64,000 bases of DNA from Rubritalea marina DSM 17716. GTDB lineage: Bacteria; Verrucomicrobiota; Verrucomicrobiia; Verrucomicrobiales; Akkermansiaceae. The stretch is taken from the NCBI RefSeq assembly GCF_000378105.1, contig NZ_KB899248.1, positions 62,001-126,000 on the forward strand. The letters are read 5' to 3'. Shown here in pieces: positions 1 to 42,056 of the stretch. The position numbers and the translations under genes are program-made. The stretch's first letter is position 1. Every line of letters starts with the position of its first letter. Under the pieces are notes generated by a model, which ran no database searches, was not told where the DNA came from, and saw nothing but the letters and a program-made list of their open reading frames with translations.

Positions 1-921
1 TTCCAAGCGAACTTTGAGTGCTTGGGTCACTTCTTGAGCGTTCTCACCCATCAGCATGAAGGCAAGGCCGAGGACGACTTCGCCCTGACCGTCAGCAGTA
101 ACCGCGCCACGACGTAGCTCACTGCCGATCTGCACTTCCGCTATATCTGCAACACGAACCGGAGTCCCTTCGCTAGAAGCGACCTCGATTCTTTCGATTT
201 GTTTAATGGAGCTGACTCGCCCTACACCATGAACCAGTAAATCTTGGCCGCTGACAGTAACCCGGCCTCCGCCCACGTTGCGGTTGTTTTTTTCCAAAGC
301 CTCTACGACATCGGAGAGAGATAAATCAAATTTTACCAGCAGCTCTGGATCGACTACAACGTGATATTGTTTTTCGAGGCCTCCCCATGAGTTTACTTCA
401 GCAACGCCAGGGACTTTGCGAAGTTCGGGCTTGATGATCCAATCATGGATGGTTCGGAGTTGTTCAAGACTGCGACTGCCGTCGCTACTACGGATCACGT
501 AATGGAAGATTTCACCGAGTCCGGTCGAGATCGGTCCCATCTGCGGTGTGCCGACTCCATCGGGCAGCTCGACTGTGAGGAGTCTTTCGGAAATATACTG
601 GCGAGCGGTGGTGATTTCCGTATCGTCATCAAAGGTGGCGACAACCTGAGAGAGCCCGAATTTGGAGACTGAGCGCACACTGACGAGTCCGGGAAGGCCG
701 GATATTTCCAGTTCAACGGGCAGAGTGATCTGTTGCTCAATCTCTTCGCCATTGAGTGACGGAGCAACGGTATTGATCTGAACTTGGATTGGAGTGGTAT
801 CCGGAAAGGCATCAACAGGAACACGCGATCCCGCCCAGATCCCGGCAACTGCGATCAAGGCGGTAAAAAGGAAGACTAACAGGCGGTTGGCCAGACAGAA
901 GCGAATGAGATGTGTGAACAT
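1..921 (-). CDS. Heavy-metal efflux RND transporter, CzcA/CusA type (partial, N-terminal 307 residues)
   Basis: Inner-membrane proton-driven pump that would export divalent or monovalent metal ions together with the adaptor and outer-membrane factor encoded just upstream. Reading the minus strand from the ATG at 921 gives an open frame to the window edge. It begins with a short cytoplasmic segment and TM1 (residues about 10-30), followed by the 'VPVDAFPDTTPIQVQI' stretch typical of HME-RND pumps, and continues through the porter domain ('GLGEIFHYVI', 'WIIKPELRKVPGVAEVNSWGG'). The family is about 1040 residues long, so roughly 70 percent lies outside the window. The charged TM4 motif that separates Czc (divalent) from Cus (monovalent) pumps is not in view, so substrate is undecided. 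It is the third gene of the minus-strand operon, 56 bp after the adaptor gene. Confidence 0.95.
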   Translation of the reverse strand, partial: MFTHLIRFCLANRLLVFLFTALIAVAGIWAGSRVPVDAFPDTTPIQVQINTVAPSLNGEEIEQQITLPVELEISGLPGLVSVRSVSKFGLSQVVATFDDDTEITTARQYISERLLTVELPDGVGTPQMGPISTGLGEIFHYVIRSSDGSRSLEQLRTIHDWIIKPELRKVPGVAEVNSWGGLEKQYHVVVDPELLVKFDLSLSDVVEALEKNNRNVGGGRVTVSGQDLLVHGVGRVSSIKQIERIEVASSEGTPVRVADIAEVQIGSELRRGAVTADGQGEVVLGLAFMLMGENAQEVTQALKVRLE

Positions 922-977
922 GGGTGCGGAATAGATTGAAAAATAGAAAGAGCGGGGTGCGGTTGGTGTGGCGGCTA

Positions 978-2543
978 TCAATCATCGACGCAGCCAGCAC
1001 CGAGAAGTGATTTGAGAAACTCCGAGCGCAGAATGTAGCTACCTTGGCTGACGATTTTATCGCCGGGCGTAAGTCCGCTGCGAATAGCGGTTAGTTCTCC
1101 GGAAGCCGCGCCATGTGTGATTTCAACGCGGGTTGCTGCGTAGAGTGCGGGTTCCTTGCGGACGAAGACGAAAGGAACTCCATCAATGGTCTGGATCGCG
1201 CCTGTGGGAACTGCGAGTGTAGGGCTGGCCTTGCCAAGGTGGATGCGAGCGTCCCCATATAGGCCTTTCCGTAAAGCGGCTGGAGGTGCGTTCACCACAG
1301 CGCGTGCCTGTATGCGGCGGGATTTCTCATCTACCGCACTCGCGACCCATACAAGTTCGCCGGTGATGACTGTATCCGGTATGTCGGTGAAAGTTGCGCT
1401 TACTTCCATTCCAGGTGTTAGGCCTGCAGCATCGCGGGCGGGAATAGAGAGTTCAAGCCACATGGTCGAGAGATCGGCCAGAACGAAGATCGCTTCGCCG
1501 GGTTCGATCCGCTCTCCTACGGAGACATCGCGGTCAACGATGGTTCCCGCAAAGGGAGCTTTTAGAGTGAGTAAAGAAGTCGGACGACCGTCGGAGGCGA
1601 GCAGATTGATTTCGTTCTCGCTCAATCCGAGATTGAGCAATCGCTGGCGTGCTGTGGACAAATCCACATCGGCGACTTCTGCAGCGGCTTCGGCGGCTTC
1701 GAGATCGGCGGCGGCGGAGATCTGTTTATCCGCTAACTTGCGCTCGCGAATTACCTGAAGACCAGCGAGCTTCTTTGCCGCATTCGCAGAGAGAAAACGG
1801 CTTTTCATTTCCGCGAAGTCCGGTGAATTCACCGTGCCGAGAATTTCACCAGCGGCAACTTTTTGACTGGGAACCACTGCGATTTTCTGGACGATGCCCT
1901 CGACCAGAGGAGTGATTTTCGCGACCTTGTTTTGATTGTAATCGACCGTTGCGTAAGCTTCGACAGCAGGCTGGCCGGTGGTAGTTTCCGGATTGGAAAC
2001 TTTGACTCCTACCTTTTCCATCGACTCGGCAGATGCGACGCGGATCTTGAGGCTTTCACCCGCCTTGAGGCTGGCTGCGAGCTGAGGTTGGCAGATGGCG
2101 CATTCCTTTTCCAGGACACCATGCTCGTTGCACATCAGGGCATTGGCGGGTGCTGACGGTGCGGCAACTCCGGCTTTGTCGCCCTTCAGTTCAGGATGGC
2201 AAAGATAGCATTCATCTTCATAGACACCGTGCTCGGTGCAATACAACCGCTTTGGGTCTTTGATTTCCGGGTGACAAAGGAAACAACGATCTTCGTATCG
2301 GTCATGTTCCTTGCACCAGAGGCGCTTGGCATCGCGTTTTGAAGCATCGCAAATGAAGCAGCCTTCGCCCGTGGGGCAGGCCGCTACGGCGTGGACTTCG
2401 ATTTCTCCATCGGAGGATTTCTCACTGGCTTCAGTCGATTCGGATTTCGTGTTGGTTTCATTTTTCTCGGCATTACATGCGGCGAAAAAAAAGGTGAGGA
2501 TGCCAAGGCCGATGGCCTGGCTTAGTTTTGGGATTAGTTTCAT
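978..2543 (-). CDS. Efflux RND periplasmic adaptor (CzcB/CusB type) with N-terminal Cys/His repeats
   Basis: Membrane-fusion protein linking the RND pump to the outer-membrane channel. Residues 1-22 form a lipoprotein signal with lipobox 'FFAAC'. Residues about 55-160 hold a tandem Cys/His-rich array: units such as 'WCKEHDRYEDRCFLCHPE', 'YCTEHGVYEDECYLCHPE' and 'MCNEHGVLEKECAICQPQ', each offering a C-x2-H and a C-x2-C pair. From about 165 on come the barrel-sandwich/lipoyl, alpha-hairpin (about 230-310) and beta-barrel domains of the CusB/CzcB family. The array probably binds the exported metal; this is inference from residue content. The stop of the upstream outer-membrane factor gene is 4 bp from this ATG, so the genes are co-transcribed and probably translationally coupled. 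At 521 residues it is longer than the usual 400-450 because of the array. Confidence 0.93.
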   Translation of the reverse strand: MKLIPKLSQAIGLGILTFFFAACNAEKNETNTKSESTEASEKSSDGEIEVHAVAACPTGEGCFICDASKRDAKRLWCKEHDRYEDRCFLCHPEIKDPKRLYCTEHGVYEDECYLCHPELKGDKAGVAAPSAPANALMCNEHGVLEKECAICQPQLAASLKAGESLKIRVASAESMEKVGVKVSNPETTTGQPAVEAYATVDYNQNKVAKITPLVEGIVQKIAVVPSQKVAAGEILGTVNSPDFAEMKSRFLSANAAKKLAGLQVIRERKLADKQISAAADLEAAEAAAEVADVDLSTARQRLLNLGLSENEINLLASDGRPTSLLTLKAPFAGTIVDRDVSVGERIEPGEAIFVLADLSTMWLELSIPARDAAGLTPGMEVSATFTDIPDTVITGELVWVASAVDEKSRRIQARAVVNAPPAALRKGLYGDARIHLGKASPTLAVPTGAIQTIDGVPFVFVRKEPALYAATRVEITHGAASGELTAIRSGLTPGDKIVSQGSYILRSEFLKSLLGAGCVDD

Positions 2544-2547
2544 AGCT

Positions 2548-3849
2548 TCAGTTGTTAGTCATTGTTTTTAGGGAATTGTGGGCGCGGAGAAGATCAGCCT
2601 GGGCGCGGGTCTGACCGCGCTCGACCTTGAATAGGGTTTTGCGGGCATCAAGCACTTCGAGCAAAGAAGCTTTGCCTGAGTTGTAGGCTTCGCGGGTGTC
2701 AGTCAGTCCTAGGCGGGCTGCATTGATGGTTCGCGTGTCGAATTCGCTGGAACGGCTGCGGGCGGCACGGAGATCTGAGGAGAGTTTGGTAATGCGGGAG
2801 CGAAGTTCGCTTTCGGTGGCGCGGCCATTGGCTTGGGCGCTGTCGAGGCGTTCTTTGGCGGCCTGAATATTCCCCTGATTACGGTCGAAAATAGGGAGTG
2901 GAATACGGATGCCGACCACCGCAGCCGTCTCATTGGCATCACGCATCTCGCGGACTCCGCCGCCTACCTCAATATCGGAATAACGCTTCACTTTTTCGAG
3001 GTCGTAGGTGGCTTGCGCACGGGCGAAACGAAGCGCAGCGGCACGCATCGCTGGATGGCGCGAGATCGCGGATTCGGGATTTGATGGGACAGCACCTCGC
3101 GGAGCATCAAGCGATCCGGCGGCGGTGACGTTGGGTGATCCACCTCCCCATATCTGGCTCAGTTCTGCTGAGGCATTGCTCTCCGTAGAGCGAGCCTCGG
3201 CAAGATTTTCCTTGGCTTCGGAGATGGCTAGCCTCGCCTTACCGACATCGATCCGATTGCTTTTTCCTACCTCAAGCAAAGTATTCAGCGTGCTCAAGTT
3301 TTCCTCTGCACGGCCAAGATTTTGTTCGCTTAGTTCGCGAAGCTTCCGCGCTTCCAGAAGGGTGGTGAAAGCCCTGTCAGCGGCGATTCGGATATTACGT
3401 TCTTCGCTGGCAATCTCGGCTTTAAGTGCTGCAGATTTGAGTGCTGCGACCATCGTTCGCTTCGACCGTTTGCCCCCGAGTTCCAGTTTTTGAGATAGCG
3501 CTGCGGTGATTTCAGCTCCATTGAAACCGCTGCTCTCACCACTTCCGGCGAAGTTCTCCACGTCCAGTCCTATTTCGGGGTTTGGTGGAAGCCCGGCCTG
3601 GATTGTCTCCGCTTCAAGAGCCCTGAGTTCCGCGCGTAGAGACTGTAATCTGGGGCTATAGATCAACGCATGTTGAATAGCACTATTGCGGGAGACGACT
3701 CCCTTCAAAAGAGGCGCTGATTTTAATCCGGTGTTGTGGCTGGAAGTAAATCGATTGGCTGATTCCCTGCTTGATCGAGACTGAGGGTCAGAGGCGCAGG
3801 AAATGAATAGGAATGGGAAAATTAAAAAAATTGAGAGCCTTAAATGCAT
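2548..3849 (-). CDS. Outer-membrane efflux channel, TolC family (CzcC/CusC type)
   Basis: Outer-membrane factor of the metal-efflux tripartite pump. The protein (433 residues) starts with a lipoprotein signal (lipobox 'FISC', Cys18), as is usual for CusC/CzcC proteins. Two OEP repeats follow, rich in long Ala/Glu/Leu helices; the hallmark 'NPEIGLDVENFAG' appears near residue 98 and the second repeat has 'IEVGGGVREMRDANETAAVVGIRIPLPIFDRNQG', cited here as its two parts around residues 300-335. It is the second gene of the minus-strand operon, preceded by the small Cys-rich secreted protein and followed 4 bp later by the adaptor gene. I am confident of the family; the transported metal cannot be assigned from this gene. 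Confidence 0.93.
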   Translation of the reverse strand: MHLRLSIFLIFPFLFISCASDPQSRSSRESANRFTSSHNTGLKSAPLLKGVVSRNSAIQHALIYSPRLQSLRAELRALEAETIQAGLPPNPEIGLDVENFAGSGESSGFNGAEITAALSQKLELGGKRSKRTMVAALKSAALKAEIASEERNIRIAADRAFTTLLEARKLRELSEQNLGRAEENLSTLNTLLEVGKSNRIDVGKARLAISEAKENLAEARSTESNASAELSQIWGGGSPNVTAAGSLDAPRGAVPSNPESAISRHPAMRAAALRFARAQATYDLEKVKRYSDIEVGGGVREMRDANETAAVVGIRIPLPIFDRNQGNIQAAKERLDSAQANGRATESELRSRITKLSSDLRAARSRSSEFDTRTINAARLGLTDTREAYNSGKASLLEVLDARKTLFKVERGQTRAQADLLRAHNSLKTMTNN

Positions 3850-3999
3850 AAGAATGTGGGTTAGAAGTCACTTGGTTTGAGTGGGTGCCTGATCCAACAG
3901 AGGAATCGGCCACAGCTGGGAAACCGCGAGAAATAATTGCGGCTTTAGGGCATAAAAAAGCGTGCGCTAAAAATGAGCGCTCGCTGTCAAACCAGTGAA

Positions 4000-4461
4000 T
4001 CAAACGAGAAACACTGAATACCTCACACGAAGAGATACAGAGGGAATAAGTCCCACAAACGGGGGGCTTCCACGTATTCCGTGGATGGATCTTGTTAGGG
4101 AAAACGCGGTGGCGATTTCTCCTAACGACCTTGGAGATGCCATGGGGTCAGCCCCGTTTCGGCTATGGCTTTGGATGGAATCTACAGCAACAAAATTGTC
4201 TAGCTCCATGTAGAGATCTAGCGAACAATCTTGGCCTCGATTAGGAGAAACATCAATCTCAGAGGTGTCTTGCGAAGAATAATCACAAGATTCTTCATTG
4301 CTAAAACGTGAGCAGGCCCCCTCTGGAAGGATATCAAGGCACTCGCATTTTCCCACGAAAAAGTTCTGTATACAAAGACAATAGCCAAGGCCAGGCTGAG
4401 AAGTGGAAATTCCCACTAACATCAACCACAGCATAACTAGTGCTGTAAGTTTACGAGGCAT
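4000..4461 (-). CDS. Small Cys-rich secreted protein heading the metal-efflux operon (unknown function)
   Basis: The longest frame extends further upstream, but the ATG at 4461 gives a protein of 153 residues that begins with a classical signal sequence ('MPRKLTALVMLWLMLVGIS'), so I chose that start. The mature part has about seven Cys residues, several as C-x-C pairs ('GYCLCIQNFFVGKCECLD', then 'GACSRF', 'ESCDYSS', 'GQDCSLD'). This spacing suggests metal binding or disulfides. I do not recognise a named family, although short Cys-rich exported proteins do occur before czcCBA-type operons in this phylum. It lies 150 bp ahead of the outer-membrane factor gene on the same strand and divergently from the ArsR gene, so it is probably controlled by the same metal sensor. 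It could be a periplasmic metal chaperone; that is inference only. Confidence 0.6.
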   Translation of the reverse strand: MPRKLTALVMLWLMLVGISTSQPGLGYCLCIQNFFVGKCECLDILPEGACSRFSNEESCDYSSQDTSEIDVSPNRGQDCSLDLYMELDNFVAVDSIQSHSRNGADPMASPRSLGEIATAFSLTRSIHGIRGSPPFVGLIPSVSLRVRYSVFLV

Positions 4462-4587
4462 TGTATAATTTGAGGTCAAATAGTTGAGCGGGCAAACGGC
4501 TTCTGTTTGTGACGCGGACGCTATGTGATTTCGCATAACGTAACTAAACACTTGAATTACGCAAGGGAAATTTTACAATTTTACATA
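4462..4587. promoter_or_regulatory. Divergent promoter/operator region between the metal-efflux operon and arsR-type gene
   Basis: 126 bp separate the two divergent starts. The region contains a short inverted repeat, CGTAA-N13-TTACG (about 4539-4561), and AT-rich stretches just before the regulator ATG ('TTTTACAATTTTACATAATG'). ArsR/SmtB regulators normally bind an inverted repeat that overlaps both promoters, so this is the expected operator location. The exact operator is not established. Confidence 0.4.
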
Positions 4588-4944
4588 ATGAAAGCCGATA
4601 TTGCAATGATCGACACCCCTAAGTGCCTGAACACGAGTAAAGTAGCTCGTCTTAAAAAGGGGCTGGAGGCGGATGCCTTTGTTGACATAGCAAAAATCTA
4701 CAAGGCATTATCGCACCCATCCCGCTTGCAGGTGCTTTATTTGCTGGGTCTGGAACCGTGCTGTGTCTGCGATTTATCTCACGTCATGGGTATTCCAGTC
4801 CCTACAGCGTCACAATACCTCAGAATACTGAGGAAAGCAGGACTCGTAGAATTCGAAAAGGATGGAAAATTTATCATCTATTCCCTGACCTTGACGGCTC
4901 GTAGCCTGGGGGATTTAGGTAAAGTAAATGCCATTTACCTCTGA
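4588..4944 (+). CDS. ArsR/SmtB-family metal-responsive repressor
   Basis: Winged-helix DNA-binding regulator, expected to repress the divergent efflux operon until metal binds. The ATG at 4588 is chosen because sequence upstream of it is unlike the family. Visible features: the helix-turn-helix core 'KALSHPSRLQVLYLLGLEP', a Cys pair directly after it ('CCVCDLSHVMGIPVPTASQ', comparable to the ELCVCD metal box), the recognition helix 'ASQYLRILRKAGLV' and the wing 'FEKDGKFIIYSL'. After 'IYSL' the C-terminus departs from the family (about 20 residues of unrelated character) and ends within an inverted repeat at 4917-4940 (7-bp arms), immediately before the scarred region. The tail may therefore have been replaced when foreign DNA arrived. 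The fold call is secure, the tail interpretation is not. Confidence 0.85.
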   Translation: MKADIAMIDTPKCLNTSKVARLKKGLEADAFVDIAKIYKALSHPSRLQVLYLLGLEPCCVCDLSHVMGIPVPTASQYLRILRKAGLVEFEKDGKFIIYSLTLTARSLGDLGKVNAIYL

Positions 4945-5480
4945 GATTGTTCGATGGCTGCAGAATACATCCCAGAATAAGGGAGAGCAGCGCAAGCAGT
5001 AGCAGCGAGAAGGCTTTCCCTTTGGGCTTACTACGTGCAGTCCTACGCCTTCGCCTGAAAGGCTCCACCTCTCAAACTCTAAAAAGTGGCGGCATTAGCC
5101 GCAGGAAATTAGCGGACTAACTGGCTTGTTTGCTCCGCACCTCGTGGACACCAAAAGCCCGCCGTTCGCTCATGCTTCGCTTGCCGGACGGGCTTATCGT
5201 GTCTCACGGACCGGAAGAATAGACAGCGTTCAATTGTCCGTTGGCGATACCAACCGACGAACAGCATTTGCCAGATGACGAACCGATCTGGCTAAGGGTT
5301 TGCCACCCTCGCGACCGTAAAGGGCATCACAAACATTGTCCTCGTCACTGCGTTCCTGCGGGACTGTTCGGAGCCTCCCTTGACGTTGCTACCCCGCTTC
5401 TCGGCGAAGGCCAAGGTTTCATGCGCGGGGCGATGAAGCCCAGTGGCTTATATAAGAACCAAATGAGAAAGGAACCTAAC
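4945..5480. other. Gene-poor, probably imported stretch upstream of ardA
   Basis: No convincing gene. The frame that reads into ardA is open from 5241, but its residues (many Pro, His, Arg) do not look coding and a better start with a ribosome-binding site (AAAGGA) lies at 5481. A GC-rich hairpin sits at 5155-5195 (AAGCCCG / CGGGCTT arms with a CCG-containing loop). A TATATAAG element at about 5450 could be a -10 box for ardA. Base composition differs from the flanking efflux operon, which is consistent with a mobile-element remnant. Confidence 0.5.
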
Positions 5481-6080
5481 ATGACGAACAACACCCCAAG
5501 AATTTACGTGGCTTGCCTTGCCAGCTATAACGCCGGAACCCTACACGGAAACTGGATCGACCTCGACGGAACCGAGGCCATCGAAGACCAAATTTCGGGA
5601 ATCCTCAAAGCCTCGCCCGAGGAGGACGCGGAAGAATGGGCAGTGCATGACAATGAGTTTTGCGGCCATCTCTCCGAGCATGCCGGAACCGATACCCTGA
5701 ACGCGATTCAGGAGGCATTCTAGAAAGTCGAAGCCGAGGGGATTGATTGGGAAGTATTCTGCGAATACTGCGCCCACTTGGGGCATGACATTGAAGCCGG
5801 ACAGGTTGAAATGTTTAGCGAAGCTTACGCAGGGACAGCGGACACACTAGAAAACTGGTGCACCGAGTTTCTGGAGGAAACCGGGCAACTGGAATCCATC
5901 CCTGAAAATCTGCGTCACTACTTCGATTATGCGGCATATGCCAGAGACATGGAAATCAACGACGTGTTCACGATCAGTCACAACAGTGACACGCTCGTTT
6001 TCTGGCATCGATATCTTCCGTGGAACCGATATAGTGGCGACCAGATTGGCCTTTCAAAATGTAGACAAACGCCAAAATAA
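5481..6080 (+). pseudogene. ardA: Antirestriction protein ArdA, interrupted by an in-frame TAG
   Basis: ArdA is a DNA-mimic protein that conjugative elements use to block type I restriction enzymes of a recipient. From the ATG at 5481 the frame encodes 'RIYVACLASYNAGTLHGNWI', the diagnostic N-terminus of ArdA, then acidic segments, and stops at a TAG (5721-5723) after 80 codons. The same frame continues without further stops with typical ArdA sequence ('DWEVFCEYCAHLGHDI', 'MFSEAYAGTADTLENW', 'HYFDYAAYARDMEI') to about residue 177. A single nonsense change therefore splits an otherwise complete gene. The last 24 codons (from about 6003) are not ArdA: they come from the repeated 5' end of the GIY-YIG gene read in the opposite direction. 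No other transfer gene is visible nearby, so this is a relic of a mobile element. Confidence 0.85.
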
Positions 6081-6122
6081 GGATGAATTGGTAGGGCCGG
6101 TGGGACTTGAACCCACGACCAA
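6000..6122. repeat. 123-bp direct repeat, left copy (GIY-YIG gene start plus tRNA-Ile 3' half)
   Basis: Positions 6000-6122 match 6317-6439 at an offset of 317 bp with about two mismatches. The shared unit holds, on the minus strand, the 3' half of tRNA-Ile2 through the T-arm and the first about 25 codons of the GIY-YIG gene. In this left copy the gene start is severed and joined to the end of ardA. Confidence 0.9.
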
Positions 6123-6151
6123 CCCCGACTCTGAGTCGGGGCTGCTCTAAC
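6089..6151 (-). pseudogene. Truncated tRNA-Ile2-like fragment with a replaced anticodon arm
   Basis: On the minus strand this matches the 3' part of the intact tRNA at 6406-6481 (acceptor 3' strand with CCA, T-arm, variable loop) and ten bases of the D-arm side. The anticodon arm is replaced by a perfect palindrome at 6123-6141 (9-bp arms CCCCGACTC / GAGTCGGGG around one base). If folded as a tRNA arm the loop would read CUCAGAG with CAG in the anticodon place. The D-arm and 5' acceptor strand are absent, so it cannot be a working tRNA. The TAG stop of the GIY-YIG gene lies in its first bases. Confidence 0.75.
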
Positions 6152-6316
6152 TAGAAGTAATATATTGGATCACCCTTTTCGGATTTTTCCACCGTTTCAG
6201 CGTAGCTTCAAGCTTTCTAGCCTCTGACATGCTTGCGATGTGCTTGGCGGCAATAAGAACAACTGGCAGGCCAAGGCGTTTTGTGGAGTGCACCATGCCT
6301 GAGTTGTGACGCGTAA

Positions 6317-6481
<165 letters not shown>

Positions 6482-6745
6482 CCTGAATTCGATTCGGAAT
6501 ATAAGGAGTCGAGATCGCTTGGCAACACAACAATTCTTTTTTTTGGATCGTGATTCTCTCCGGCTCCATGGAATTGCAGGCTGGGGGTGGCGTGCTGGAC
6601 TTGAGATCACTAAGTCATGCGTGATGGACGCGCGCTTAGGTGGTTTTCAACTGGCTTGTAACAAATAACTTCTGGCTTTGATTCTAACGGTCTGATAGTT
6701 TTTTAAACGCTCGTTGTTCGGGCGCTTAATGAACACTAGAAAATT

Positions 6746-7432
6746 ATGAATAAGTATTTAGCGGAAGCATTTGGAACATTTTGGTTGGTGCTGGGCGGTT
6801 GTGGAAGTGCGGTCTTAGCAGCAGGAATCCCTGATGTGGGGATTGGCTACTTGGGAGTGTCTCTTGCTTTTGGACTAACTGTACTGACGATGGCATTTGC
6901 AATTGGCCACATTTCTGGCTGTCACCTCAATCCAGCAGTATCGATCGGATTGATGTTGGGTGGTCGCTTTGATAAGAAGGATCTCCTACCTTACATCACC
7001 TTTCAGGTGCTGGGGGGGATTGCAGCGGGCGGTGTCCTCTATGTGATTGCGAGTGGTAATGACGCTTTTAGTCTTGAGGGTGGCTTTGCATCCAATGGTT
7101 ATGGAGAGCATTCGCCGAACGGTTATTCGATGATGGCCGGCTTCGTGTGTGAGGTCGTCATGACGATGATGTTCTTGATCATTATCCTAGGAGCCACGGA
7201 TGAGCGCGCTCCTGCTGGTTTGGCTCCCATTGCAATTGGCCTAGGCTTGACCTTGATTCACCTCGTGAGCATTCCTGTGACCAACACCTCGGTGAATCCT
7301 GCGCGCAGTACTGGTGTGGCGATCTTTGCTGGTGGATGGGCAGTGAAGCAACTTTGGTTGTTCTGGGTGGCTCCGATCATCGGAGCTGTGTTGGGTGCGC
7401 TTGTCTACCGCGTGATTGGCGCCAAAAAGTAG
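6746..7432 (+). CDS. aqpZ: Aquaporin Z-type water channel
   Basis: Inner-membrane water channel of the MIP family, 228 residues with six membrane spans. Both NPA half-helix motifs are present: '[11 protein letters not shown]' near residue 63 and '[10 protein letters not shown]' near 186. The N-terminus '[21 protein letters not shown]' and the residue set around the second NPA (short loop with Arg after NPA) match AqpZ rather than glycerol facilitators, which carry an extra insertion and Asp after NPAR. It stands alone with its own upstream region and shares the bidirectional terminator at 7461-7497 with the convergent asnS gene. Role: rapid water flux during osmotic change. Confidence 0.95.
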
Positions 7433-37454: not shown

Positions 37455-37569
37455 CTATTTCTAGCTTGCCTTGGGAATCGCGGCGATTATGGTCGCATCC
37501 AGTTCGGGACTTGGCGCAGTTTGGTAGCGCGCCGCTCTGGGGGGAGCGGAGGTCGCAGGTTCGAATCCT
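37455..37569 (+). repeat. Left direct repeat of the tRNA-Pro element (promoter plus broken tRNA-Pro)
   Basis: 115 bp identical, apart from one extra G, to 41930-42043. It contains a promoter (TTGCCT at 37466, 16-bp spacer, TATGGT at 37488) and tRNA-Pro sequence from 37505 to the T-arm. Beyond 37569 the sequence ('AATGCCTGTGTGCG') no longer fits a tRNA. The anticodon loop has six G instead of five, a further sign of decay. Confidence 0.93.
37505..37569 (+). pseudogene. Truncated tRNA-Pro (GGG) without 3' acceptor strand
   Basis: Runs from the 5' acceptor strand through D-, anticodon and most of the T-arm, then breaks. An additional G enlarges the anticodon loop. It still has the promoter, but the acceptor stem cannot close, so a charged tRNA is not expected. 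Confidence 0.85.
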
Positions 37570-37901: not shown

Positions 37902-39485
37902 CTATTGCAAAGCTTTGTTCAGTAAGTCAGCTTCTTTGAGTAAGGGGGTCAAAGTGACGATCTGTACAGGGCTAAGATCCATTTGTTGAAGTAATTTGAC
38001 TCTTGATGTTAGCGCTTGAAGACCAGCCTTTATTTCAGGTAATTCGGCACTGTTATCTACTTTGTATGTTATAAGAGCGTTCTCATTTACTGAAGCCTCA
38101 CCCCCTTTATCTGTGGCGTTTATGCTGTATTGCGAACTGATCTGCTCGATCCCTCCCCCCATAGTATCTTTCAAAGACTTTAGATCGTATTTTGTATCGG
38201 AGATTAACTGGTCTATTAGATCTGTCTGAGAGCTTAAGATTGTAGTAACAAGAGTTTGGCGTTGAACCGAGTCTAGTAGTTGAGCCTCTTCAGATTCGAG
38301 CATTTTAAAGGCTTTCTGAGGGTTCTTTTTAGCTAAATCTTCTATGCCACTTACTAGTAGTTTGAGTGTTTGATTAGTTTCATCCGATCTTTCAGCCATT
38401 ATACGTGTTTCAACAGCACCGAGGTTCGGGTAGTCTGGATACCTTACTGAGAATGCATTAAACTGTAGACTGGCTTGTCTCGCGTCACGTCTAGCTAGAT
38501 AGCCAAGCTCTTTTGCCTCGACGTTAGCAGCGTCATGCTTGTTTTTTAGGTAGGCAATATCAGGGGTAATCTGTCTCTCTACAATTGTGACTATTTCACG
38601 GTCAGTAATTTGTGTTTGAACCTTGCTTAAGGAGTAATTTATTTTTTCTAGAGCTGACCAATATCGATTCATTGCAACTTCTGCATTCATTTTGCTGCGT
38701 ATTGCAGCAGCAATTTTGGTAGCTTTTGCGATGACTTTCTGTCTTTTAATAACCTCTTTCTGCTTTTGGGCTATGTCTAGGTCATTGGTATAGGAGCGAG
38801 TGTAGACGTTGCATATGGCAAAAGCTGCTTCTACTTCGTCAGCGTCGATGAGCAGATCTAGCAGCCTGAGTGTGTCCTTTTTAAGCTGCTCTCCTGAAGC
38901 AAGGTCAATAGAGGCTTCGTTTCTTTTAATTTTTCCTGCTTCGCTCTTGAGCTTTGCCAACTCTTTTTCAGCTTGCGCTATGATACTGGCATTTCTCACA
39001 CATTCTCTATGTGCTTTTGTGCCTTGTTGTACTCCCCGTGTCCGATTAAAAGTTAGTTTATCAATTTTAGCGTTGGCTGTGGCGACGATCTGTTTGTATT
39101 TCGCGTATTCTGCACGTACTTGATTTTTTCTAGATTCATTTTGTTTAGATGAATGAGAAAGTGCAGAGTTTTTTTGGTGGTGGGGCATTGTGCCTTTGGC
39201 TAAATCGAGCATCACGTTTACTCCTAAAACTTGATATGAATTGGGTGCATAGTCGGGGTTGTTTAAAAAGTCTTCCCCAAAATTGACAGACGCTTCCATA
39301 TCATTTTTACGAAAAGCATTTACTACGTTTTTCCATGCTTGGGTAGCGCTGGCATCTTCTAGATTTGTGACATCAACTTCTGGAGATAGTAGATCGTCCA
39401 ATTCGTCAGCAAAGCTAACGGGAGCTATTGATAAAATTACTGATGAGCTTAGTAACAGAGTTTTAAAAAAAGGGGGGAAAGACAT
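37902..39485 (-). CDS. Large exported coiled-coil protein carried by the tRNA-Pro element (unknown)
   Basis: The ATG at 39485 gives 527 residues with a good signal peptide ('LLLSSSVILSIAPVSFA', cleavage before DELDD). The longer frame (61 more codons) would bury the signal and is rejected. Most of the mature protein is helical and charged, with coiled-coil stretches near residues 110-200 ('AYKYKQIVATANAKIDKL'-like), 240-320 ('IAQKQKEVIKRQKVIAKATK') and 430-520. A helical-repeat segment at the start ('AWKNVVNAFRKNDMEASVNF') recalls TPR units. No enzyme motif is visible. Codon use is AT-leaning like the rest of the element. As its only large cargo gene it may act outside the cytoplasm on the host surface or on competitors; that is conjecture. 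Confidence 0.6.
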   Translation of the reverse strand: MSFPPFFKTLLLSSSVILSIAPVSFADELDDLLSPEVDVTNLEDASATQAWKNVVNAFRKNDMEASVNFGEDFLNNPDYAPNSYQVLGVNVMLDLAKGTMPHHQKNSALSHSSKQNESRKNQVRAEYAKYKQIVATANAKIDKLTFNRTRGVQQGTKAHRECVRNASIIAQAEKELAKLKSEAGKIKRNEASIDLASGEQLKKDTLRLLDLLIDADEVEAAFAICNVYTRSYTNDLDIAQKQKEVIKRQKVIAKATKIAAAIRSKMNAEVAMNRYWSALEKINYSLSKVQTQITDREIVTIVERQITPDIAYLKNKHDAANVEAKELGYLARRDARQASLQFNAFSVRYPDYPNLGAVETRIMAERSDETNQTLKLLVSGIEDLAKKNPQKAFKMLESEEAQLLDSVQRQTLVTTILSSQTDLIDQLISDTKYDLKSLKDTMGGGIEQISSQYSINATDKGGEASVNENALITYKVDNSAELPEIKAGLQALTSRVKLLQQMDLSPVQIVTLTPLLKEADLLNKALQ

Positions 39486-40189
39486 GTGCGTGTAGGTGTA
39501 GTATAGTTGGGTGTTACGATAACTCAATATGTGGAGAGTGGATCCCAATGTGAAGAAAAAAATATAGATAAATGGGCTAACTAGTAAAATGAGTGAATTC
39601 TTCGCGCATCGTGATTGATTGTGAGTGTTGACTTGTCTTGGAGGGAGTTTGATAAAGTGATTCTTCATTTGTGCTAACAGATGTTGATGTGTGAGCTTTA
39701 TGAAGTTAATGTTTTTTGTCGTTTCTTGTTGACAATGTTGTATGTAATGTTAGCATTTTAATCGTGATTTTTGATTTTAAATATCACCAAGGCAAGTCTT
39801 TGGGGGGAGAGGTTCGTAACCTCAACTTGCTGCCATATATAACTATATGAATTATTTATTTTTTCATTTTTTATAATTCCGATGAGTTTTTTCGGTTGTA
39901 TAAAAAGTGAATATTTTTAAATACTATATTTAATTGTTTCGGAAATGCATTTCAATTCCTTAATATGGTTGTGGAGGTTTCTTTTATAAGAATATTTCTA
40001 GATGAGTTAACTATCAGTTCTTATGAGCAGGTATGTATGCTTTTCGGAAATGCCTACAATGCTATATAGTATGTGTAGTATCTAGTAAAAAAGAAACATA
40101 ATAGGTGTTCCTTTGTGTGCCTTCTCTTCTGTTCTCTTTGTTGCGAGTGTTTTATTCATTTAGTTATAATGTAAATATAAAATATTATT
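39486..40189. other. AT-rich intergenic region with nested hairpin and repeated 12-mers (candidate element origin)
   Basis: About 700 bp without a gene between the two divergent element genes. At 39791-39834 there is a two-level inverted repeat: outer GGCAAG / CTTGC(T)GCC and inner GAGGTT-CGT-AACCTC. The 12-mer TTTCGGAAATGC occurs at 39937-39948 and again at 40042-40053. The region around 39840-40190 is more than 70 percent A+T by eye. A promoter for the rightward gene is likely: TTGCGA (40141) and TATAAT (40165). Structured AT-rich DNA next to a replication-type gene is what an origin would look like, but it is unproven. Confidence 0.45.
40141..40170 (+). promoter_or_regulatory. Predicted promoter of the polymerase-like gene
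   Basis: TTGCGA (40141-40146), 18-bp spacer, TATAAT (40165-40170). Transcription would begin about 13 bp before the ATG at 40190, leaving almost no leader; no ribosome-binding site is seen, so translation may be leaderless-like. Confidence 0.45.
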
Positions 40190-41434
40190 ATGGCGAATAA
40201 AAAAGAAAAGAAAATAGTAGTTTTTTTACCCAAAAAGAGTAAGAGGATTTTTAAGTGTTTATATGATGAATTCCCTAAAACAAGTAAAGGTAAATATGCT
40301 AACTTTAAAAAATCTGTTGCATTTATTACTGAGTATATAAATCTTTCGAAATCTTTAGGTTTTAAGTGTGTTAGTATGAGTTCAACATATATTAAAAGTA
40401 AATATGGAGATGTGGTGTATGAATCATTAATTAATGGATACTTGTCTAAAATAGTGGTAAGAGGTGATGCATATTCTAATGATTTTGGTAAAGGGTTTTG
40501 TAAGTCTTTTAAATTAAAAGATGAATATATGAAGTCATCGCTGTATCACGTCAAGATCTGTGGAATTAATATTTCAAGAGCCAATAAGTATTGGTTTCCT
40601 GATGAGTCTAAGGGTTTTCTCAATAGGGATTTGGTAGAGAAAGGGCTTAATTCTCTATCGATTGACAATAAAGACTTTGGTGAGCTTGATGCAGATATCT
40701 ATATGTCGATGTCAAAAAATTCTGTAGATCTAAAGGACTGGAAACTTTCAAGAAAAGATCGTGTCTACAGTGCTGTGACGAATATGAAGAAAAGCGTTCG
40801 GCGTTGTTTACGGATGAATGGTAGCCCGATCACATGGGTAGATGTTAAATGTTGTCAGCCATACTTAGCCCTCTCTTATCTTAGTGATGAAAGGGAGTAC
40901 AGGATCTGGTCTAACATGTTGGACCGAGACTTTTACAACTCAATTCTGAAATTTAATAAATTTTACGAAGGTTTAGGTAATGATCGAGCAAGGATGAAGC
41001 AGCTGGTTTCAGCATTTCTAGCAGGTTGTGGTGATGGTACGTCGAAGTATCCATTAGGCAATTGCAAGTATGATGACCCTGATGAGCTAACCAATGATGA
41101 AAAGCACGCCATTCACCAATTCATGAAAAGAGCATTTCCCGTTTTTTACAAAGAGCATAAAAAAGGTCGAAAGGAAAAGCACAGCTATCTGTCTTTGGCT
41201 CTCATGAAGCTGGAGTCAGATGTTATTATCGACAGAGTATTGCCTGAGTTAGATTTTGATGCTGTTACCATTCACGATTGCATAGGTTGCGAGCCTAAGA
41301 ATGCTGATAGACTCAAGCAAGTCATGATGGAAAAATTTGAGGGGGCTATAGGTGTCTCTCCAAAGCTTGATGTTGATAGTCCTGTAAGCTTCCTCCAACT
41401 GTACTTTATGTTGAGTGGGCTGGTGGTGGCTTAG
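40190..41434 (+). CDS. Winged-helix plus family-A-polymerase-like protein of the tRNA-Pro element
   Basis: 414 residues, AT-rich. Residues about 55-115 ('SMSSTYIKSKYGDVVYESLI' then 'FGKGFCKSFKLKDEYM') look like a winged helix. From 190 on, motifs resemble the palm and fingers of family A polymerases: 'WVDVKCCQPYLALSYL' (motif A, Asp218, Gln223), 'DRARMKQLVSAFLAGCG' (motif B-like, Arg266, Lys270), 'LALMKLESDVIIDRVLPEL' (Glu342) and 'AVTIHDCIGCEP' (motif C, His362, Asp363). No 3'-5' exonuclease is present and the size is half that of Pol I. I recall similar 'DI-SQP...HD' proteins from phages and mobile elements that have no assigned activity. It may replicate the element. The last about 15 residues run antisense to integrase sequence, so the C-terminus may be altered by a junction. 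Confidence 0.6.
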   Translation: MANKKEKKIVVFLPKKSKRIFKCLYDEFPKTSKGKYANFKKSVAFITEYINLSKSLGFKCVSMSSTYIKSKYGDVVYESLINGYLSKIVVRGDAYSNDFGKGFCKSFKLKDEYMKSSLYHVKICGINISRANKYWFPDESKGFLNRDLVEKGLNSLSIDNKDFGELDADIYMSMSKNSVDLKDWKLSRKDRVYSAVTNMKKSVRRCLRMNGSPITWVDVKCCQPYLALSYLSDEREYRIWSNMLDRDFYNSILKFNKFYEGLGNDRARMKQLVSAFLAGCGDGTSKYPLGNCKYDDPDELTNDEKHAIHQFMKRAFPVFYKEHKKGRKEKHSYLSLALMKLESDVIIDRVLPELDFDAVTIHDCIGCEPKNADRLKQVMMEKFEGAIGVSPKLDVDSPVSFLQLYFMLSGLVVA

Positions 41435-41767
41435 ATAGAACGCCACAGCATCAAGGAGGGTGCTTTTCTGTTTTAATTTGGCAAAGGCGTCTTCAGCCAT
41501 TCTCACATCAATAGCCGTAAGATGAGTGGTAACATGGTTAAGGGGTTGGTTTATATCTTTGTTTAAACGAAGCAGGGCAACAAAGCACTCAGCATCTTCA
41601 AGGTATTTGAATTTCTTTCTTTTCCATTTTCCATCCTCCTTCCAGCCCTGCACTAGATGACTATGGTAGCGTTTTCCGTTCTTCGTCTCAGTGTATTCTC
41701 TGATACTTAATTTAGATAGAGTGTGAGTAGGCTTAGATTTGAGGTTTTTATTTTTGGAGATGTTCAT
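41249..41767 (-). pseudogene. N-terminal fragment of a tyrosine recombinase (integrase)
   Basis: From the ATG at 41767 the first about 125 residues look like the arm-binding and start of the core-binding region of phage-type integrases: 'KNGKRYHSHLVQGWKEDGKW', 'KRKKFKYLEDAECFVALLRL', 'LLDAVAFYLSHHQP' and 'HKVQLEEA'. After about 41390 the frame runs antisense through the polymerase-like gene and no longer resembles an integrase; the catalytic domain with R-H-R-Y is missing. The gene is next to the right repeat and points away from the tRNA, the usual position of an integrase by its attachment site. The element therefore probably cannot excise by itself. Confidence 0.65.
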
Positions 41768-41929: not shown

Positions 41930-42043
41930 CTATTTCTAGCTTGCCTTGGGAATCGCGGCGATTATGGTCGCATCCAGTTCGGGACTTGGCGCAGTTTGGT
42001 AGCGCGCCGCTCTGGGGGAGCGGAGGTCGCAGGTTCGAATCCT
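41930..42043 (+). repeat. Right direct repeat of the tRNA-Pro element
   Basis: Partner of 37455-37569, offset 4475 bp. It includes a promoter (TTGCCT at 41941, TATGGT at 41963) and tRNA-Pro from 41980 to the T-arm, after which the complete 3' end of the gene continues. Confidence 0.93.
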
Positions 42044-42056
42044 GTAGTCCCGACCA
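41980..42056 (+). tRNA. tRNA-Pro (GGG anticodon), intact copy
   Basis: 77 nt with encoded CCA. Acceptor CGGGACU / AGUCCCG closes fully, the D-arm is GCGC...GCGC, anticodon arm CCGCU-CUGGGGG-AGCGG, T-arm GCAGG-UUCGAAU-CCUGU. Its 5' part and promoter belong to the duplicated 114 bp, while the last 13 bases are unique to this copy. A terminator follows at 42067. Confidence 0.95.

Follow-up and report, generated by a model that had tools for sequence, protein, structure and literature searches.

What does a 414-codon reading frame without a database family encode, and what does its product do for the DNA that carries it? This question is raised by a gene, here called P0001, in the window, the 64,000-nucleotide stretch of Rubritalea marina DSM 17716 that was analysed. 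A preliminary description had read the protein as a winged helix joined to a small polymerase-like domain on a mobile element. We consider P0001 to be probably a minimal family A nucleic acid polymerase of the TV-Pol/divPolA2 type, belonging to a small mobile element integrated at a tRNA-Pro gene. The assignment draws on the family to which the protein belongs, its catalytic residues, a recurrent linkage to integrases or resolvases and a tRNA-flanked island, all of them read from sequence.

The polymerase gene and its active-site motifs

The gene lies on the forward strand at the following position.

40190..41434, + strand: polymerase gene P0001, 414 aa, ATG start, stop at 41434, with a family of divergent relatives

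The coordinates were checked and agree with those described before. Among 400 random sequences of matched composition, no open run exceeded 239 codons, compared with 414 in P0001. Searched alone and by sequence, P0001 gave no significant match in Pfam, NCBIfam, PHROGs or PDB; the Pfam search also gave no exonuclease match, in line with the described lack of that domain. In tblastn against phages and plasmids, P0001 retrieved only matches at E ~9 to N4-type RNA polymerase 2 (RNAP2) and other noise, and the faint matches from the PHROG search and the phage tblastn were to N4-type RNAP2, all on motif C.

The catalytic residues emerged from an alignment of 19 divergent relatives, in which 306 columns were scored for conservation. 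Apart from the start Met, the only invariant columns are R191, D218, E342, H362 and D363, and four of these five fall on the Arg of the hairpin, the Asp of motif A and the His and Asp of motif C, a pattern at motif residues that exceeds chance. Furthermore, P224 and Y259 are kept by 18 of the 19 members, while K270 is lysine in 17. The residues fall into the following elements.

40760..40762, + strand: R191, beta-hairpin arginine (TGR/RGR position), invariant in 19 sequences; RGRVY in T7 RNAP, TGRLS in Pol I
40841..40861, + strand: motif A, D218-V-K-C-C-Q-P224, D218 invariant and P224 in 18/19; a strand in both models
40985..41026, + strand: motif B (fingers helix), R266-x3-K270-x8-G279, with the spacing of Pol I, T7 RNAP, T7 gp5 and N4 RNAP2; helix 266-279 in the model
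41213..41215, + strand: E342, in the helix preceding motif C, invariant in 19 sequences
41273..41278, + strand: motif C, H362-D363, followed by Cys, not Glu, invariant in 19; strand-turn-strand in the models, block pLDDT 73

D218, Q223, R266, K270, E342 and HD362-363 all stand where the preliminary description had placed them, and the 19-member alignment together with the motif B spacing confirms motifs A, B and C in the order of family A polymerases, with the E342 helix ahead of motif C. R191, which takes the place of the TGR/RGR arginine in Pol I and T7 RNAP, had not been mentioned. The spacing of motif B, by contrast, had been called non-canonical, and this impression must be corrected. The pattern R-x3-K-x8-G occurs exactly once each in Pol I (R754), T7 RNAP (R627), T7 gp5, N4 RNAP2 and P0001; since it is the same in all of these, the remark on an irregular motif was mistaken. 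In P0001 the motif reads R266ARMKQLVSAFLAG279, so that the motif glycine is G279, nine residues after K270, and G281 is a second glycine. An aromatic residue normally occupies the K+8 position of motif B, which is Ala in P0001. The residue after HD is Cys, Gly, Ser or Ala across the family, compared with HDS in T7 RNAP, HDC in N4 RNAP2 and HDE in Pol I and T7 gp5.

As a separate observation, E342 and its equivalents, invariant in the 19 members, lie within a Q-x-x-E-S stretch ahead of motif C. To our knowledge, textbooks do not list a Glu at this position among the catalytic residues of family A polymerases.

Fold models and profile comparisons

Two AlphaFold2 runs were made, with alignments of three and four rows that included no proteins from the genome-search loci, one row in each being a divPolA2 phage protein. 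The mean pLDDT is only 40 in both models, while the blocks around palm motifs A and C reach 54-87, and the strands, the motif B helix and the strand-turn-strand of motif C appear in order. When compared with the PDB by Foldseek, either model retrieved family A DNA polymerases throughout its top 20, and the 50 matches listed for the second model likewise all belong to family A, the best with E 4.5e-4 and a probability of 1.00. The TM-scores of these PDB matches are low, about 0.25, which a poor model would lead one to expect. Among viral models, the best Foldseek matches are phage proteins of 400-435 aa, including the Rheinheimera Barba polymerase (divPolA2), and a Zamilon virophage replication protein ranks lower; the divPolA2 row in each alignment means that these viral matches were partly favoured by construction, which does not apply to the PDB matches. 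A fold search against family A polymerases had been proposed as a check of the earlier reading, and both models, at a pLDDT of about 40, retrieved such enzymes, a palm-less fold not being obtained. Together with the invariant catalytic columns and the motif B spacing, these fold matches support a small polymerase of family A type.

Profile comparisons with individual enzymes gave no significant match. In hhalign, the family profile aligned with Pol I, T7 RNAP and T7 gp5 (one sequence each) only at motif C, with a non-significant E of 0.2-0.3, and the PDB profile search gave E above 1 throughout.

The N-terminal domain

Ahead of the polymerase motifs lies a segment that was proposed to be a winged helix.

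40295..40522, + strand: probable winged helix, residues ~36-111, with a pattern shared in 7 relatives, wing residues 95 and 107 conserved, and a GC change point

With the relatives, residues ~36-111 share a helix, a stretch that resembles a helix-turn-helix, and an end like a wing, G-x-K-S-x-Y-x-L, and Tyr or Phe at positions 95 and 107 is kept in nearly all 19 members. The N-terminus is therefore probably a DNA-binding winged helix, as had been suggested; the shared pattern speaks for the earlier reading, while neither a confident model nor a database match accompanies it, and the winged-helix profile found no match in the PDB. No further copies of this domain were found in 286 genomes of the class.

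The base composition of the gene changes at the edge of this domain. GC is 25.5% at 40190-40530 and 40.5% at 40531-41434, with the change at residue 114, just past the winged helix; the log-likelihood ratio of the change point is 12.4, compared with at most 8.5 in 500 codon shuffles, and GC3 is 21% vs 36-45%. The position of the jump at the domain boundary suggests that the DNA-binding module was exchanged.

The tRNA-flanked element

P0001 lies in an AT-rich island of 4.47 kb that is flanked by two direct repeats, 115 and 114 nt long and identical except for a single G, each comprising 50 nt of upstream DNA and the first 65 nt of tRNA-Pro. The features of the island are as follows.

37455..37569, + strand: left direct repeat (pseudo-tRNA, att copy) from the repeat search, anticodon run longer by one G, 3' end unmatched; ARAGORN, tRNA-??? 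gggg
37902..39668, - strand: 588 aa ORF from the ORF list, cargo, with a signal-like N-terminal stretch; homologues with best E 3.9e-88
39669..40189, no strand: AT-rich non-coding region, 521 bp, 29% GC by composition, upstream of the polymerase gene
41413..41767, - strand: N-terminal fragment of a tyrosine integrase, ~119 aa; 47% identity (E 1.2e-22) with a relative whose open frame has 437 codons
41930..42043, + strand: right direct repeat (att copy) from the repeat search, the same as the left save one G
41980..42056, + strand: intact tRNA-Pro (GGG), integration target; ARAGORN, and Rfam RF00005 with 63.9 bits for 41980-42053

The Rfam tRNA model detected only the right tRNA copy and left the other undetected. 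By carrying these repeats, the element appears to bring its own tRNA 5' half and perhaps also its promoter. In 11 congeners neither flank keeps an adjoining tRNA-Pro, and an empty integration site was not found. It was also observed that the att repeats hold the 5' part of the tRNA, compared with the common targeting of the 3' end, as in a related element described below (locus L102).

Between the polymerase gene and the tRNA, and divergent from the latter, lies the integrase fragment; integrase homologues whose open frames span 423-447 codons are up to 47% identical to it. Since the homology ends at residue 119-120, at the last codons of the polymerase gene, a deletion has taken most of the integrase, the antisense of which now encodes the last few polymerase codons, while the catalytic part of the polymerase is untouched. 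As the integrase is truncated, the element in this genome is probably no longer mobile by its own integrase. The tRNA-Pro repeats and the truncated integrase, neither of which had been seen before, thus agree with the mobile-element setting that had been assumed for the gene.

The 588 aa ORF, which occupies the left half of the island, gave no match in Pfam, PHROG or NCBIfam; its relatives come from few genomes of the same taxonomic family, chiefly from another genus. The AT-rich region at 39669-40189 is a possible origin or control region. A 12-nt direct repeat, TTTCGGAAATGC, occurs there at 39937 and 40042; with a P of 0.06 for this single repeated 12-mer, which is not clearly above chance, we make no claim of iterons. 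No helicase was recognised by eye near P0001 or at those loci of its relatives that were read.

Relatives and their genomic neighbourhoods

Relatives at ~19-26% identity turned up in whole-genome searches of the same order and, when profile A2 was used, of the phylum; with profile A8, relatives were detected in 15 of 384 genomes of the class. Most members of the 19-member set are 349-503 aa long, and no close homologue of P0001 was found in the genomes searched. Scans of IMG/VR for close relatives returned only L049 and a phage copy, L047, while tblastn with the relatives L005, L006 and L008 found none in plasmids, and none in phages with L005.

Site-specific recombinases recur beside these genes. 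By a local profile, a tyrosine integrase is present at 6 of 12 newly fetched polymerase loci, in one case only as a 102 aa piece; the profile also matches L016, L017, L018, L020 and L025, loci that contributed to it. Pfam confirmed integrases at L016, L018, L019, L021, L025, L097, L098, L105 and L106, and resolvases at L016, L021, L104 and L105. L097, L098 and L020 all show a tRNA first, then the integrase and then the polymerase; the integrase adjoins tRNA-Ser, tRNA-Gly and tRNA-Pro. In the small elements L017, L020 and L098 the polymerase is the main gene beside int. L014 and L020 represent one contig of 4.75 kb, labelled uncultured Opitutae. At L102 (3608-11666), the last 45 nt of a tRNA-Arg recur ~8.0 kb away beside an integrase with one mismatch. 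This is apparently an intact integrative element of ~8 kb with whole integrase and polymerase genes, and the best candidate for experiments.

L023 and L024 look prophage-like by eye, and a contig filed as viral (L049, positions 1-6313; IMGVR_UViG_3300032235_001248) carries a polymerase relative beside methyltransferase-, DUF262- and restriction-like genes, likewise read by eye, and is possibly a mobile island and not a virus. At L016, a protein of 208 aa without a family match is encoded just downstream of the polymerase relative (6378-7004) and is a possible functional partner of the polymerase.

Possible roles of P0001

The nature of the product was weighed first against a small single-subunit RNA polymerase, similar to N4 RNAP2 or T7 RNAP, which would transcribe the genes of the element or make RNA primers. 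RNA synthesis is conceivable, given the Cys that follows HD in P0001 and in N4 RNAP2 alike; the Cys, Gly, Ser or Ala found there in the family recalls HDS and HDC rather than HDE, the sole weak sequence matches are to N4-type RNAP2 at motif C, and Yutin et al. kept an RNA polymerase as an option for divPolA2 (PMC11348598). We nevertheless regard this reading as improbable. DNA polymerases lead the fold matches, with mitochondrial RNA polymerases well behind, the K+8 Tyr of T7 RNAP is missing, and small elements more obviously need replication than a private transcriptase. Two points favour DNA synthesis: every fold match listed for the better model is a DNA polymerase, and CCPol, an enzyme of the same broad kind, provides a DNA polymerase precedent.

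Polymerase-like enzymes such as Abi-P2 act in defence, and a SIR2-like neighbour at L018 and the DUF262-like one at L049, both read by eye only, could hint that P0001 is cargo, a polymerase for defence or abortive infection, and not the replication protein of the element. With an integrase or resolvase as the recurrent neighbour, no single defence partner, and the polymerase as the main gene beside int in three small elements, this seems very unlikely. A more serious doubt, although still on the unlikely side, is that P0001 is a decaying relic without present function in an element that has lost its integrase. The truncation of the integrase at the 3' end of the polymerase gene, the pseudogene state of the left tRNA copy and the lack of a close homologue in the genomes searched would fit such decay, but the frame is intact over 414 codons with all family-invariant residues kept, and the att repeats are still identical save one base, which implies a recent insertion.

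For the minimal family A polymerase that we prefer, the most likely role is replication of the excised element, perhaps with priming. Integrase-mediated excision would come first, after which the N-terminal winged helix would dock P0001 on the DNA of the element, perhaps at the AT-rich stretch that precedes the gene. In the palm, D218 and D363 would hold two metals for two-metal nucleotidyl transfer, while R266, K270 and R191 would contact nucleotide and DNA. P0001 might then synthesise DNA, and possibly its own primers too, on the circular element, which would be copied and raised in copy number before re-integration or transfer. Enzymatic activity, origin binding, any priming and a DNA rather than an RNA product are the inferred parts of this scheme. 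A bolder version, which we hold to be doubtful, would make P0001 a self-contained replicon protein: a single family A chain of ~400 aa would unite an origin-binding winged helix with primase and DNA polymerase, would replicate small tRNA-integrated elements that encode neither helicase nor SSB, and would have its DNA-binding module swapped between elements.

Comparison with known polymerases

TV-Pols, a kind known from transposons and viruses, were described as minimal, nuclease-free family A polymerases that are 400-600 residues long, carry an Arg in the beta-hairpin, an Asp pair in the palm and RxxxK, and adjoin lambda-type integrases or gamma-delta resolvases in diverse bacterial hosts, including Verrucomicrobia; they were predicted to be primase and polymerase, and CCPol was counted among them (Iyer, Abhiman and Aravind 2008; PMC2579912). 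The defining residues, namely the hairpin Arg, the palm Asp pair and the fingers RxxxK, are all present in P0001, as are the minimal domain without nuclease and, in the family, the integrase or resolvase neighbours. P0001 would thus work like a TV-Pol and shares most of the defining features in the published description, which makes it TV-Pol-like rather than an established member. Several differences are evident: TV-PolN was predicted to be all-helical, while the N-terminal domain of P0001 reads as a winged helix; a subset of TV-Pols has a fused or adjacent D5 helicase, none of which was recognised near P0001; and the fingers Asp of TV-Pols is not kept in P0001 under the preferred alignment. 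Depending on the alignment, this position is D247 or K257 (D247-F-Y249 vs K257-F-Y259), and the column beside Y259 holds D, K, N or G among the relatives. Microcystis phage Ma-LMM01, a known TV-Pol carrier, gave no match to profile A5. Since integrase- or resolvase-linked minimal family A polymerases were reported in 2008 (PMC2579912), the element is not the new sort of replicon that had been envisaged.

The phage relatives lead to divPolA2, named in 2024 by Yutin et al. (PMC11348598). L006, L008, L009 and L012 match phrog_4756 at 2e-10, 4e-10, 2e-9 and 1e-46, P0001 itself is absent among the matches at E <= 1, and the family profile aligns with the phrog_4756-type profile through motifs A-B-C at E 1.4e-11. 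With L012, tblastn retrieved 115 Rheinheimera phage records as well as Vibrio and Aeromonas phages, which are those from which divPolA2 was named (PMC11348598); from this list of phage hosts and the Barba fold match, phrog_4756 presumably corresponds to divPolA2. Similar to P0001, divPolA2 proteins have ~400-435 aa, palm motifs A-B-C and an extra N-terminal domain in place of thumb and exonuclease. However, they are encoded by lytic phages beside a normal PolB, whereas the P0001 family occurs in integrase elements, and motif A is DFxALHP in divPolA2 but D[IV]KxCQP in the P0001 family.

The closest characterised analogue of P0001 is CCPol-MP of SCCmec, a demonstrated DNA primase-polymerase (Bebel et al. 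2020; PMC7581432), and related PolA-SSB primase pairs are widespread in Bacillota (Rice 2023; PMC10061031). The preliminary description knew of no activity for proteins of this kind, which overlooked CCPol-MP, assigned to the TV-Pols. CCPol is likewise a small exonuclease-less family A polymerase of an integrative element with a recombinase, and with its essential active-site aspartates D169/D324 it is a demonstrated model for the activity proposed here. Unlike P0001, which has no significant Pol I match, CCPol is close to housekeeping Pol I in sequence, and it is accompanied by MP and a helicase in one operon and by a serine recombinase, none of which was recognised at P0001. For the OB-fold MP partner and the helicase beside P0001, it should be considered that OB folds are hard to spot by sequence and that the 588 aa ORF has no family. 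Pipolins (piPolB) are alike in concept, being integrated elements with their own self-priming polymerase beside a tyrosine recombinase and a tRNA site, but their polymerase belongs to family B and its chain is unrelated to P0001.

Minimal family A polymerases of mobile elements are therefore already known as a kind. P0001 and its relatives add an N-terminus that is probably a winged helix, tRNA-integrated elements of very small size in which no helicase was recognised, and a profile match that ties bacterial element polymerases to the phage divPolA2 family. The kind is thereby extended to a recurrent set of very small integrative elements of Verrucomicrobiota, with polymerase and integrase among few genes. 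P0001 was missed by Pfam and NCBIfam, and the only model to detect four of its relatives was an unnamed PHROG, so that genes of this sort are probably annotated as 'hypothetical'. The set provides material on whether TV-Pols besides CCPol prime and replicate their elements, and on whether divPolA2 is a DNA or an RNA polymerase.
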